This document shows positions 4,525-50,239 of a stretch of DNA of 64,000 nt, one piece after another; within the stretch, counting starts at the first letter, position 1, and each line of letters opens with the position of its first letter. The translations under genes were made by a program, and so were the position numbers. The stretch is from Methylophilus medardicus (GTDB lineage: Bacteria > Pseudomonadota > Gammaproteobacteria > Burkholderiales > Methylophilaceae). The DNA is taken from positions 992,001 to 1,056,000 of the forward strand of contig NZ_CP040948.1 of the NCBI RefSeq assembly GCF_006363955.1, read 5' to 3'. A model generated the notes under the pieces. The model worked only from the letters and a program-made list of their open reading frames with translations. It was not told the DNA's origin and searched no databases.

Positions 4525-7500
4525 ATGACTGCAGTCTCTCCCGCACATCGCATCTCCCAACTTGATCAACAACTCTCTCAGTGCATGCTGGCGGATCGTT
4601 TTCCGCTCAGGCGACGATTGCAGCAGGCACGTGACGCTTTAAAACAAGGTAAAAACGTCGATACTTCGTTAGTGGCCATTGCCGACAAAGTATTGGCCTC
4701 TCAGCAGAGCATGCAAGCCAGATTGGCGGCATTGCCGCGCCCTGAGTATCCCGAAGCGTTACCCGTCAGTGGTAAAAAAGAGGAAATTGCCGCGGCGATT
4801 GCCAAACACCAGGTAGTGATTGTGTGTGGCGAAACGGGTTCTGGTAAAACCACCCAGTTGCCGAAAATTTGTCTCGAATTAGGCCGTGGGGTGGCTGGTT
4901 TGATTGGGCACACACAACCTCGCCGGATTGCAGCCCGCTCGGTTGCCTCGCGCATTGCGCAGGAGCTGAATAGTCCGCTGGGTGAAGTGGTGGGTTTTAA
5001 AGTGCGCTTTAACGACAAACTGTCTGAGCGTACCTATGTTAAGTTGATGACCGATGGTATTTTGCTGGCTGAGACGCAGAGCGATAAGTTTCTGAATGGC
5101 TATGACACCATCATCATTGATGAGGCGCATGAGCGTAGTCTCAATATTGACTTTCTGCTTGGCTACCTAAAACAGTTATTGCCTAAACGGCCAGATCTCA
5201 AAGTGATTGTCACTTCGGCGACGATTGATGCAGACCGCTTTTCCAATCACTTTGAGGGCGCACCGGTGATTGAGGTCAGTGGGCGCACTTATCCGGTTGA
5301 GATTCGCTATCGTCCGTTAGGCAACAAAACCACGATGGTTGCCGTTGAAGTGCCGGTGGATGATGGTTTGGATGACATCGACCGCTTTGCGCAGGACTTG
5401 ATGGGCATTAAACGCAAACAGCCACGCACCGAGACACGTTGGCTGGAGGAGGATGAGGAAGAGGAGGTGATGGAAGATGCCATCCTCGATACTGCTGAAG
5501 ACCTGTTGCGTTTGGGGGATGGCGATATTCTGGTATTTTTACCCGGTGAACGCGAAATTCGTGACACTGCAGACCATTTGCGCAAATATCAGGGACGCTC
5601 GCCAAAATTGAACTCGATTGAGGTGTTGCCGCTGTTTGCCCGTCTGAGTATCGAAGATCAGCAAAAGATTTTTCGCCCGAGTGGCCAGCGTCGGATTGTG
5701 TTAGCGACCAATGTTGCTGAAACTTCTCTGACGGTGCCGGGCATTAAATATGTGATTGATGCTGGATTGGCACGGGTGAATCGTTATAGCCCGCGCGCCA
5801 AGGTCGAACAATTACAGATTGAAAAAATCTCGCAAGCAGCCGCCAAGCAGCGGGCAGGGCGCTGCGGCCGCGTCTCTAACGGCATCTGCGTGCGTTTGTA
5901 TTCTGAGCAAGATTTTAACCAACGCCCAGCGTTTACGGATCCTGAAATTTTGCGCAGCTCATTGGCAAGCGTGATTCTGCGGATGGCTGATTTACGCTTA
6001 GGCGATGTGGCGGAGTTTCCTTTTCTGGAGGCCCCTTCAGCGCGATTGATCAATGATGGTTATCAATTGTTGCAAGAATTGGGCGCGGTGACCGAGCGGC
6101 GAGAGATCACTGAGCTTGGGCGACAAATGGCGCGTTTGCCACTCGACCCACGCGTCGCACGCATGATTCTGGCGGCGAAAAAAGAAAGTTGTTTGCGTGA
6201 GATTCTGATTATCGCCAGTGTGCTGAGCATGCAGGATCCACGCGAGCGCCCGATGGATAAGCGTGAGGCGGCGGATCAAGCGCACGCCAAGTTTAAAGCC
6301 GACGATTCTGACTTTATGAGTTATCTCAAACTGTGGGATTGGTACGATCAGGCATTCAAAACCAAAAAATCCAACCGCGAGTTACTCAATCAGTGCCATC
6401 AACATTTCTTGTCGTTTTTGCGTTTGAAGGAGTGGCGGGAGTTGCATCAGCAACTGCTGGAAATGGTCGAGGAGATGGACTACAAACGCAATGATGTCGC
6501 GGCTAGTTATGCGCAAGTACACAAAGCACTGTTGTCTGGTTTGTTGGGCAATATCGGCTTTAAAGATGGTGACAGCGAGACCTATGCCGGTGCGCGTGGA
6601 ATTCGCTTTACCATTGCGCCGGGCTCGGCACTGAAAAAAAATCGACCGAAATGGGTCATCGCCGCCGAATTGGTGGATACCACGAAATTGTATGCTCGTG
6701 TGGTGGCCAAAATTGATCCAGACTGGATAGAGCCGATCGCCAACGAAGGCGGGAGCCGTGATCTGACGCAGAGCGACTATAGCGACCCTCGATGGGATCG
6801 AAAAACGGCGCAGGTGGTGGCCTGGGAGCGTGTCAGCTTGTATGGGCTGACCATTGTGCCCAAACGGCGTGTGCACTATGGACCTATTCAGCCGACCGAA
6901 TCGCGAGAGATTTTCATTCGAGAAGCTTTGGCCAATATGGCCTTTGATACCCGCGCAGCATTTTTTGAGGCGAACCGCAGCTTGATTGCCGAGGTCGAGG
7001 CGCTGGAACACAAGGCGCGTCGGCAGGATGTGCTGGTGGATGAATATCAGTTATTTGCTTTTTATGACAAAGTAGTGCCGCCGATTGCTGACCCTTACCG
7101 TATTTATAACGGAGCGGCATTTGAAAAGTGGCGGCAAGATGCCGAAAAAAGTAATCCTAAAGTGCTTTATTTAACGCGTGACTCACTCATGCGCCATGGG
7201 GCGAGTGCGATTACAGAGGTGCAGTTTCCCGAACAGTTGACCATCGATGGTGAAACCGTCCCCCTTAAATATCGCTTTGAACCCGGCCATGTGCTCGACG
7301 GCGTGACCGCGACCATTCCACTCGCCCTGTTAAATCAACTCGATGCCGCGGTGACAGAATGGCTGGTGCCCGGCATGGTGCGTGATAAGGTCACGGCGCT
7401 GATTAAAGCCTTACCTAAAACGCTGCGCCGTGTGTGCGTGCCCGTGCCTGATTTTGTGACGGCTTTTCTCGAAAAAAACTCTGCAACATCAGCCTTGTTG

Positions 7501-46451: not shown

Positions 46452-48059
46452 TTATTCCCACTCGATGGTGGCTGGCGGTTTACCCGAAATGTCATAAACC
46501 ACGCGGTTGATGCCACGCACCTCGTTAATGATACGGTTGGAGACTTTACCCAATAGACTGTAGGGCAGTTCTGCCCAATGTGCTGTCATAAAGTCACTCG
46601 TCACCACAGCACGCAAGGCCACCACATAGTCATAGGTGCGGCCATCGCCCATTACGCCCACTGATTTTACTGGCAGAAATACGGTAAACGCTTGGCTGGT
46701 TAAGTCGTACCAAGTTTTGCCAGTTTTTTCGTCTACGGTATTGCGTAATTCTTCAATAAAAATGGCATCGGCGCGTTGTAGCAATAACGCAAAATCACGT
46801 TTCACCTCGCCCAGGATGCGCACGCCCAAGCCAGGGCCAGGAAACGGATGACGGTACACCATGTCGCGCGGCAAGCCCAAAGCGACGCCTAACTCACGCA
46901 CTTCGTCTTTAAACAGGTCGCGCAAAGGCTCCAACAGCTTGAGGCCGAGTTGCTCAGGCAGTCCGCCGACGTTGTGATGGCTTTTAATAGTGACTGCTTT
47001 TTTGGATTTGGCCCCACCGGATTCAATCACATCCGGATAAATTGTGCCTTGTGCCAGGAATGTCGCGCCCTGATGGCCTTTACCGCTGGCTTTCAGTTTT
47101 GCGGCTTCGGCTTTGAATACCTCAACAAACTCAGCACCGATGATCTTACGTTTGGCTTCCGGGTCGCTGACACCTGCCAGCTTGCCCATAAATTGCTCGG
47201 TCGCATCGACGCGGATGACGTTTGCATGCAAACGGCCAGCAAACATGTCCATCACCATGTCACCTTCATTCAGGCGTAACAAGCCATGGTCAACAAACAC
47301 ACAGGTTAGTTGGTCGCCAATGGCGCGGTGGATCAGTGCTGCAGCCACGGAAGAATCAACGCCGCCTGACAAACCCAAAATAACTTCTTCATCACCGACT
47401 TGTGCTTTGATTTTGGCGACTGCTTCGCTGATGTAGTCCCCCATGATCCAATCGGGTTTGGCCGCGCAGATATCCAACACAAAGCGCTCCAGCATGGCTT
47501 GGCCTTGTTTGGTATGCGTCACCTCAGGGTGAAATTGCACAGCATAGAAACGGCGCGCTTCATCGGCCATGGCGGCAATCGGCGTGGTATCGTTGCTGGC
47601 GATGACTTTAAACCCGGCTGGCAACTCAGTGACTTTATCGCCGTGACTCATCCAGACGTCAATCAGACCATGCCCCTCAGCATTGGTGGCATCCTGAATG
47701 TCGCGGAACAGTGCAGAATGGCCCCGTGCACGCACTTGCGCATAACCAAACTCACGCTTGGTGCCTGCTTCTACTTTGCCGCCGAGTTGCTGTGCCATGG
47801 TTTGCATGCCATAGCAGATGCCCATAACGGGCACACCTAATTCAAACACCGCCTGTGGTGCCTTATCTGTTTCGGCTTCGTAGACACTGGCGTGGCTGCC
47901 GCTCAGGATAATGCCATCTGCTCCAAAGCTTTGCACAAACGCGTCAGACACATCGCATGGATGGATTTCACAGTAGACATGGGCTTCACGCACACGACGG
48001 GCAATTAACTGGGTGACTTGAGAGCCGAAATCGAGAATCAGAATTTTTGAGTGAGACAT
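46452..48059 (-). CDS. guaA: GMP synthase (glutamine-hydrolysing)
   Basis: 535 residues. N-terminal class I amidotransferase with nucleophile Cys in [14 protein letters not shown] and the HPEVTHT triad; the ATP-PPase loop [11 protein letters not shown], and a C-terminal dimerisation domain ending with KPPATIEWE. Converts XMP to GMP. The region directly upstream of ATG 48059 has no Shine-Dalgarno sequence; a hairpin-repeat (48066-48135) lies between it and guaB. Second gene in guaB-guaA. Confidence 0.97.
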
Positions 48060-48065
48060 TGTTTA

Positions 48066-48135
48066 GCCACAGAGTGCACAGAGGACACAGCGTCTGAGAG
48101 TATTCATTCTCTGCGACTGCTGTGTCCTCTGTGGC
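48066..48135 (-). repeat. Palindromic repeat with ACAGAG motif between guaB and guaA
   Basis: A 15-base perfect inverted repeat (CACAGAGGACACAGC at 48077-48091 and GCTGTGTCCTCTGTG at 48119-48133) is joined by a loop with a smaller inner stem (GAGA/TCTC); an outer GCCACAGAG/CTCTGTGGC extends it to 48066-48135. It resembles the ACAGAG-iterated intergenic repeats scattered in many bacterial genomes. It occupies the whole gap and leaves no ribosome site for guaA. Confidence 0.75.
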
Positions 48136-48155
48136 GTTAAATAAAAAATAAGAAG

Positions 48156-49625
<1,470 letters not shown>

Positions 49626-49641
49626 TTATCTCCAAAATATA

Positions 49642-49670
49642 ATTATACCGATTTCATTTTGCCTTGACAA
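49642..49670 (-). promoter_or_regulatory. Sigma-70 promoter of guaB
   Basis: Minus strand TTGTCA (-35), 17 bases, TATAAT (-10), about 25 bases before the guaB ATG. The match to consensus is nearly perfect. Confidence 0.85.
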
Positions 49671-49753
49671 AGCGTTTTGCATTTTTAAGCGCGAGAGGGC
49701 TGGTGTTTGGCATGGTTTGTGCATGGTAGTTTTTAAATAAGCGTAGGGCGTGA

Positions 49754-50239
49754 ATGATAATGAAAATATGGAATCTGCTGTTGGCGGGATGTTTGCTGTG
49801 CACGCTGCAGGCAAATGCCGAAATCTATAAGTGGCGCGATGACAAAGGCGTGATGAATTACTCTGACATTCCACCGCAGACGGGGATTAACAACACGCAA
49901 AAAATTAAGGCAGCGACGGTGCCGAATGACCGTCCACTGACGCGCTCAGACAGTTATCAGCCTGAAGAAGCGGCGGCTGTACCGAAGCGAACCGCAGAAG
50001 GCGGTGAGGCGAATGCCGGCGGTGGAACCACCGAGGCCGAGGCATTAAAAGCAATGCAAGCGCGTTTAAAAGCGCAAAATTGTGCATCAGCACGCTCTAA
50101 TTACCGTAATTATGCGGTGGGTGGCCGCATGCAAAATGTGAACGAAGACGGTCAGAGAGAGTATTTGGGCGACGATCAGATTAAAGAGGCTCTGGCTCGA
50201 GCGCAGCAAGAGATTGACGAAAATTGTCCACCTGAGTAA
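49754..50239 (+). CDS. Exported DUF4124-domain protein
   Basis: 161 residues. Signal peptide (about 3-22, ending ANA), then the DUF4124 core (EIYKWRDDKGVMNYSDIPP), an unstructured charged middle with Gly/Glu and Thr, and a C-terminal helical part with two cysteines (QNCASARSNYRNY and DENCPPE) that could form a disulfide. ATG 49754 is preceded by AGGG; ATG 49760 is in frame. DUF4124 proteins are common in Betaproteobacteria; function not known. Divergent from guaB. Confidence 0.87.
   Translation: MIMKIWNLLLAGCLLCTLQANAEIYKWRDDKGVMNYSDIPPQTGINNTQKIKAATVPNDRPLTRSDSYQPEEAAAVPKRTAEGGEANAGGGTTEAEALKAMQARLKAQNCASARSNYRNYAVGGRMQNVNEDGQREYLGDDQIKEALARAQQEIDENCPPE

Follow-up and report, generated by a model that had tools for sequence, protein, structure and literature searches.

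A hairpin of a dispersed CACAGAG family in the guaB-guaA gap of Methylophilus medardicus

The window analysed is a 64,000-nucleotide stretch of the Methylophilus medardicus genome (assembly GCF_006363955.1, contig NZ_CP040948.1, positions 992,001 to 1,056,000), and positions below are counted from its first base. Two genes on the minus strand, which we take to be guaB (IMP dehydrogenase) and guaA (GMP synthase) from recognition of their sequences, without a family search, are separated by a gap of 96 nt (48060-48155) that holds a hairpin element. The features are listed below, with mean pairwise differences among related genomes that carry the element.

46452..48059, minus strand: guaA, GMP synthase; an ORF with relatives found
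48060..48080, minus strand: guaA translation-initiation region without a Shine-Dalgarno site; an in-frame TAA lies 6 nt before the ATG
48066..48135, minus strand: whole hairpin element, from inverted repeat and fold; common to 15 genomes of the genus
48066..48076, minus strand: third, outer unit CACTCTGTGGC, rival partner for the 5' arm; difference 0.132
48077..48091, minus strand: 3' arm in the mRNA, GCTGTGTCCTCTGTG; difference 0.010 over 14 columns
48092..48118, minus strand: loop with a weaker inner stem, fast-changing; difference 0.391
48119..48135, minus strand: 5' arm in the guaBA mRNA, GCCACAGAGGACACAGC, two units with the second shortened; difference 0.040 over 16 columns, 15 genomes
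48136..48155, minus strand: 20-nt leader from the guaB stop to the element, A/T-rich and unconserved; difference 0.444
48156..49616, minus strand: guaB, IMP dehydrogenase; an ORF whose C-terminal part adjoins guaA in 30 of 30 loci
49642..49670, minus strand: sigma-70-like TTGTCA-17-TATAAT, 11 of 12 bases, about 25 nt before guaB; a consensus match only

As read in the window, the perfect arms CACAGAGGACACAGC (48077-48091) and GCTGTGTCCTCTGTG (48119-48133) are 15 nt long, 100% complementary and 27 nt apart, and the outer GCCACAGAG and CTCTGTGGC widen the element to 48066-48135, or 70 of the 96 nt of the gap. It begins 20 nt past the guaB stop, and its other edge is 6 nt short of the guaA ATG. 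These coordinates agree with a first-pass annotation of this DNA, which had described a 15-base perfect inverted repeat with an outer arm, filling most of the gap and ending 6 nt before guaA. Folded as guaA-sense RNA, the gap reached -37.7 kcal/mol (z -5.75), and none of 200 shuffles was equally stable. The sequence CACAGAGGACACAG, searched at up to 2 mismatches, had three matches in the 64-kb window (0.26 expected), every one in the gap, and the hairpin is confirmed as a genuine, non-chance feature. The unit count is unequal, with two in the guaB-side arm and three in the guaA-side arm, so that the 5' arm has two possible partners and two pairing registers compete. An Rfam-type RNA identity was dropped, as Rfam had nothing at the element above the gathering threshold (the best sub-threshold model, a microRNA, scored 20.8 bits vs 90).

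The guaBA gap was compared in the best 30 loci from 81 genomes searched, representing 21 of the 22 genus genomes and nine from other genera (G142 was excluded for its missing guaA start). The ACAGAG hairpin is present in 15 of the 30 gaps, and on a guaB+guaA tree the 15 carriers lie inside one Methylophilus clade of 16 (support 100/100). The sixteenth member, G105, is sister to G057 (99/97) and has a different hairpin in the gap; on this tree the pattern needs two changes, consistent with a single gain followed by a replacement in G105. Presence in all but one of the 16 members of a well-supported clade does not support a recent insertion, and the element appears to be long established and conserved within the guaBA pair. 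Hairpins with z of -4 or lower occur in 27 of the 30 gaps (all 15 ACAGAG rows and 12 of the 15 others, the remaining three having z of only -2.0 to -3.5), compared with two of a control set of 21 co-directional gaps, each 60-140 nt long, sampled from 200 kb of the M. medardicus genome (median z -0.96). A hairpin is therefore common in the guaBA gap across the family while its sequence changes. Three of five convergent gaps in the M. medardicus genome also had z of -4 or lower.

Among the 15 ACAGAG rows, which were picked for ACAGAG arms and so exclude strongly altered arms (within the clade one row, G105), mean pairwise difference was 0.040 for the 5' arm, 0.010 for the 3' arm and 0.132 for the outer third unit, and 0.391 and 0.444 for the loop and leader, respectively. 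Codon positions 1, 2 and 3 of the guaB and guaA pieces differed by 0.044, 0.018 and 0.431; the arms vary about as little as positions 1 and 2, and the loop and leader resemble position 3. The M. medardicus genome offers no other recognisable copy that could homogenise the arms by conversion, and covariation on these rows is little informative because the arms hardly vary. Judged by this comparison, the arms are constrained in sequence beyond pairing.

The start of guaA has no Shine-Dalgarno site, as the first-pass annotation had said: its duplex with the anti-Shine-Dalgarno tail (a general sequence, not taken from the genome's own 16S gene) is -1.5 kcal/mol, and the median for 121 long ORFs of the same genome, crudely called, is -2.9, with 36% reaching -4. 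An alternative start is rejected: all 30 homologues begin at the same place, the in-frame TAA lies just upstream, and the protein has no further Met until about residue 80. The annotation had gone further, proposing that the repeat replaced the guaA ribosome site and took over control of the gene. The duplex is weak in all 30 rows (-2.8 to +3.5 kcal/mol), 15 of which lack the element, so the element did not remove a Shine-Dalgarno site, and replacement and takeover are not upheld; a weak site is a common trait of the family's guaA, with or without the element. Control of translation, in which the hairpin would limit 30S loading on guaA, perhaps via a register switch, is an unlikely role. In 12 of the 15 ACAGAG rows the predicted stem comes to within 4-8 nt of the ATG (16-17 nt in M. 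medardicus (G000), G019 and G145), the competing third unit is fairly conserved (0.132) and the Shine-Dalgarno site is weak, all of which would suit such a role; however, the main stem ends 21-37 nt before the ATG in nine of the 15 other rows, where the site is weak too, the outer unit varies more than the other two, and the replacement hairpin in G105 sits 25 nt away.

A scan of 48000-49900 gave two promoter-like matches (1.7 expected), one of them before guaB and none on the coding strand within guaB or the gap, from which we infer a guaB-guaA operon; the two genes are probably co-transcribed. A partial transcription terminator or attenuator between them would fit the presence of hairpins there in most relatives, some with U-rich tails (6 of 8 in G006 and G001), so that the ancestral hairpin may have had some terminator activity, and it would fit the ACAGAG-like stems before T-runs at a second locus of the genus (site A, below). 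This reading is improbable for guaBA, where no U-tract directly follows the stem (tail ACTCTGTG, 3 U of 8), no T-run is present on the other strand, a terminator scan had no match at the hairpin, and the coding strand of guaB and the gap has no promoter-like match for a separate guaA transcript.

The M. medardicus genome is complete in one contig of 2,602,980 bases and is without a second recognisable copy. At up to 1 mismatch CACAGAGGACACAG occurs nowhere in it besides the two guaBA arms, and exact CACAGAG..CTCTGTG pairs 8-69 nt apart are absent outside guaBA. GCCACAGAG has 12 matches vs nine for the reversed control, of which only the guaBA two are close and oppositely oriented. Decayed remnants may exist, since at up to 3 mismatches the arm 14-mer slightly outnumbers its reversed control (147 vs 116 matches). 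The first-pass annotation had named a lack of genome-wide copies as evidence against its reading; as far as recognisable copies go, that lack is seen in this genome but not in its relatives. Among 150 Methylophilaceae genomes, 64, M. medardicus included, have the arm 14-mer at up to 1 mismatch, with zero up to tens of matches per relative. The element is also present in NZ_JADKYT010000001.1 of Methylophilus sp. QUAN. Of the 22 genus genomes, 15 contain exact heptamer pairs spaced 8-38 nt (reversed control 0 of 22), and 15 contain pairs spaced 39-69 nt (reversed control 1 of 22). Forty genus loci around copies were taken; an exact heptamer pair was present in 28, and the set comprises 31 elements, 30 of them distinct. 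These 30 group into about ten orthologous sites, five of which are common to several genomes, so much of the spread is old. The top loads in the family belong to genus g15, in which five of six genomes (G014, G033, G045, G064 and G073) have 18-45 arm matches each and the sixth, G055, has one.

Gaps between co-directional genes hold 26 of the 30 distinct Methylophilus elements, with one in a convergent gap, none in divergent gaps and three in called ORFs, and the elements lie a median of 13 nt past a stop codon. Background gaps of at least 60 nt comprise 75 co-directional, 16 convergent and 37 divergent. With about ten orthologous sites, this orientation bias rests on few independent cases, and the zero for divergent gaps is only suggestive. 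In other organisms, 118 listed loci with crude ORF calling gave 46 co-directional, 11 convergent and 11 divergent placements, 49 in ORFs and 20 at edges, and an orientation bias is not clear.

A further reading is that a mobile repeat of REP or MITE type, dispersed by a RAYT or another transposase, left the element behind as a neutral remnant; the first-pass annotation had proposed to look for a REP-type transposase. Y1_Tnp has one match in the M. medardicus genome and a match in 49 of 150 family genomes. At 21 Y1_Tnp loci (this one and 20 from the family), no CACAGAG..CTCTGTG pair was found within about 1.5 kb. Y1 matches are commoner in high-copy genomes (at least 10 arm matches; G087 below the family cut-off) than in the others (10 of 15 vs 39 of 135; raw counts with no genome-size correction), so a loose link between Y1 genes and the element stays in consideration. 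Five of the 15 high-copy genomes have no Y1 match, among them G075, G014 and G033, each 99% complete, with 21, 45 and 32 arm matches, respectively. With no element at any of the 21 loci and five high-copy genomes lacking Y1, a REP-type transposase is not supported. REP elements flank a RAYT and recur, but no RAYT is flanked at these loci and the M. medardicus genome has a single element. Neither GTAG nor CGTC occurs within 10 nt on either side of 48066-48135, on either strand, and the element does not fit either of the two REP super-families named by these motifs. An element-borne gene was considered and rejected: among the 118 listed loci, proteins up to 400 nt away cluster in at most four loci and farther ones in clusters of up to nine members, and the clusters adjoining elements, judged by eye, resemble common families. 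Dispersed copies in relatives, the Y1 excess and nested and chimeric hairpins at site 10 speak for a mobile remnant. Its probability is nevertheless low, as five of ten sites are common to several genomes, neither a clean empty site nor a target duplication was seen in the compared orthologous gaps, where those lacking the element carry other hairpins or diverged sequence, none of the 21 Y1 loci is flanked, no transposase-like family recurs beside the element (by eye), and the arms are strongly conserved although the genome has no second copy.

Beyond the genus, at least 118 stretches of genome contigs, from many bacterial phyla and archaea, contain exact arms separated by 10-40 nt, which bears out the likeness to widespread ACAGAGGACACAG repeats seen by the first-pass annotation. 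The bacteria among the matches listed include Deltaproteobacteria, Anaerolineae, Planctomycetes, Acidobacteria, Nitrospirae, Nitrospinae, Chlamydiia, Spirochaetia, Gemmatimonadaceae, Verrucomicrobia, Fimbriimonadales and other Proteobacteria, and the archaea listed include Methanoperedens and Methanosarcinales; most listed matches are metagenome bins, so individual taxon assignments may be wrong. A looser pattern was found in eight of 398 Pseudomonadota genomes, M. medardicus among them (reversed control 0 of 398), and E. coli genomes had no match at E 0.01. Plasmids gave five partial matches. Among viral contigs, one only (L210) has the exact hairpin.

The arms are built of CACAGAG plus two freer bases, with a period of 9. 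In 60 Methylophilus arms counted from the first heptamer (these include orthologues and are hence non-independent), CACAGAG recurs at positions 9-15 and 18-24 with 1.0-1.6 bits, and the two spacer bases carry 0.65 and 0.46 bits at positions 7-8 (first spacer) and 0.04 and 0.05 bits at positions 16-17 (second spacer). For 274 arms from other sources, information content is 1.1-1.6 bits at the second heptamer, in part a product of the search pattern, and 0.46-0.60 bits at the third. Outer units are present on both sides in 10 of the 116 elements of the wider listed set with enough flank (two more of the 118 are at edges), and the spacers of these ten are complementary in seven (shuffled mean 1.5, maximum 6, 2000 shuffles).

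Unit number also varies within a site. On one side of the site B hairpin, G075 and G093 have about three CACAGAGTA units and G110 at least 10; in G110 (L250, G110:C1:1403863-1404096) the element lies between co-directional genes, with the tandem CACAGAGTA run of at least 10 on the left and four units on the right. The site B element is present in three relatives, degenerate in a fourth and missing from M. medardicus, which is, by the tree, a loss. Site A (G000:C1:979550-979850 and orthologues) has GCGCC-type terminator-like stems in G000 and G093 and GGCCACAGAGA-type stems with T-runs in G110 and G099; ACAGAG-like stems therefore also occur at terminators. Six genomes retain a hairpin at site C (G099:C1:1908568-1908615 and orthologues) while both sides of its stem change, the stems being CACAGAGGCACAGGG in G099 and of AAAGGCACNGAG types in four others. 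In one further orthologous site, L325 (G120:C14:44521-54521, 4760-5100) and L312 (G075:C1:2344022-2354022, 4840-5100), a CGCAGAT-like hairpin replaces the left half of the ACAGAG hairpin, and the G075 hairpin combines a CGCAGAT-like arm with a CTCTGTG-like one.

The main text of a REP survey (PMC3733652) describes the GTAG and CGTC super-families, expects more untagged families and contains no ACAGAG. Like the REP elements described there, the present elements are short, dispersed and mostly intergenic palindromes, for which mRNA stabilisation or termination has been proposed; unlike them, they have no GTAG or CGTC foot, are built of 9-nt units with a stem of at least 15 bp (5-13 bp tabulated there) and have no flanking RAYT at the 21 Y1 loci examined. 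Stem-loop families of 40 bacterial genomes (PMC2267715) are likewise dispersed, with many intergenic members, and the main text of that paper includes neither ACAGAG nor CTCTGT; PMC6006769 has no word starting ACAGAG. A literature text search with the unit and its complement returned no relevant paper; supplementary files and subscription papers fall outside its reach, and an earlier description is possible. In E. coli, as reported in PMC5927463, 34 gene pairs have a stabilised first gene, and in 26 of them an RNA end lies just past a stable hairpin without a uridine tract. The guaBA hairpin resembles the malE-type protective hairpins of that paper in being stable, past an upstream gene, without a uridine tract and in a probable operon, and differs in that its arms belong to a dispersed, sequence-conserved repeat family and in that its effect on decay is inferred. 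It also resembles the stem-loops of cip-cel selective RNA processing and stabilisation, as outlined in PMC4423207, which are intergenic, at 3' ends and set transcript ratios; such processing at guaBA would be putative.

The guaBA hairpin is stable (-37.7 kcal/mol, z -5.75), lies 20 nt past the guaB stop and is not followed by a U-tract, which is the structure expected of a protective operon hairpin, and we put at about even the chance that it acts as a 3'-5' exonuclease barrier protecting the guaB message. A stable RNA hairpin 20 nt past the guaB stop in a co-transcribed guaB-guaA message would block 3'-5' exonucleases, the guaB segment would then persist longer than the guaA segment, and GuaB would be made in excess of GuaA. 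The element itself is an inherited member of a dispersed CACAGAG+2-nt hairpin family, and in one Methylophilus clade it occupies the slot that most other examined Methylophilaceae fill with other hairpins. The barrier is supported by strong hairpins in 27 of 30 guaBA gaps vs two of 21 controls, the swap in G105, the missing U-tract, the co-directional setting of 26 of 30 Methylophilus elements and the conserved arms. Against it are the few independent sites, the U-rich tails of relatives, the three weak gaps and the strong hairpins of convergent gaps; pairing alone would suffice for a barrier, yet the arm sequence is conserved. What is kept from the first-pass annotation alongside this barrier is a widespread hairpin repeat before a guaA with no Shine-Dalgarno site; the takeover is given up, and a recent insertion and a REP-type transposase are not supported.

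In a bolder reading, the conserved arms would point to a factor that reads CACAGAG. CACAGAG-NN would then be a recognition word that recurs every 9 nt along the stem and is read by a very widespread putative RNA- or DNA-binding factor of many bacterial phyla and archaea, and the guaBA hairpin would be a fixed, sequence-constrained regulatory part, kept without another recognisable copy in the genome. This is rather unlikely as it stands.

The same arms, in which the heptamers are constant and the spacers freer but mostly complementary, occur across many bacterial phyla and in archaea, and hairpins with them fit neither named REP super-family. The guaBA gap is a clean test case, with one copy, one gene pair and a natural replacement in the close relative G105, and could separate the possibility that any hairpin will do from the possibility that this sequence is needed.
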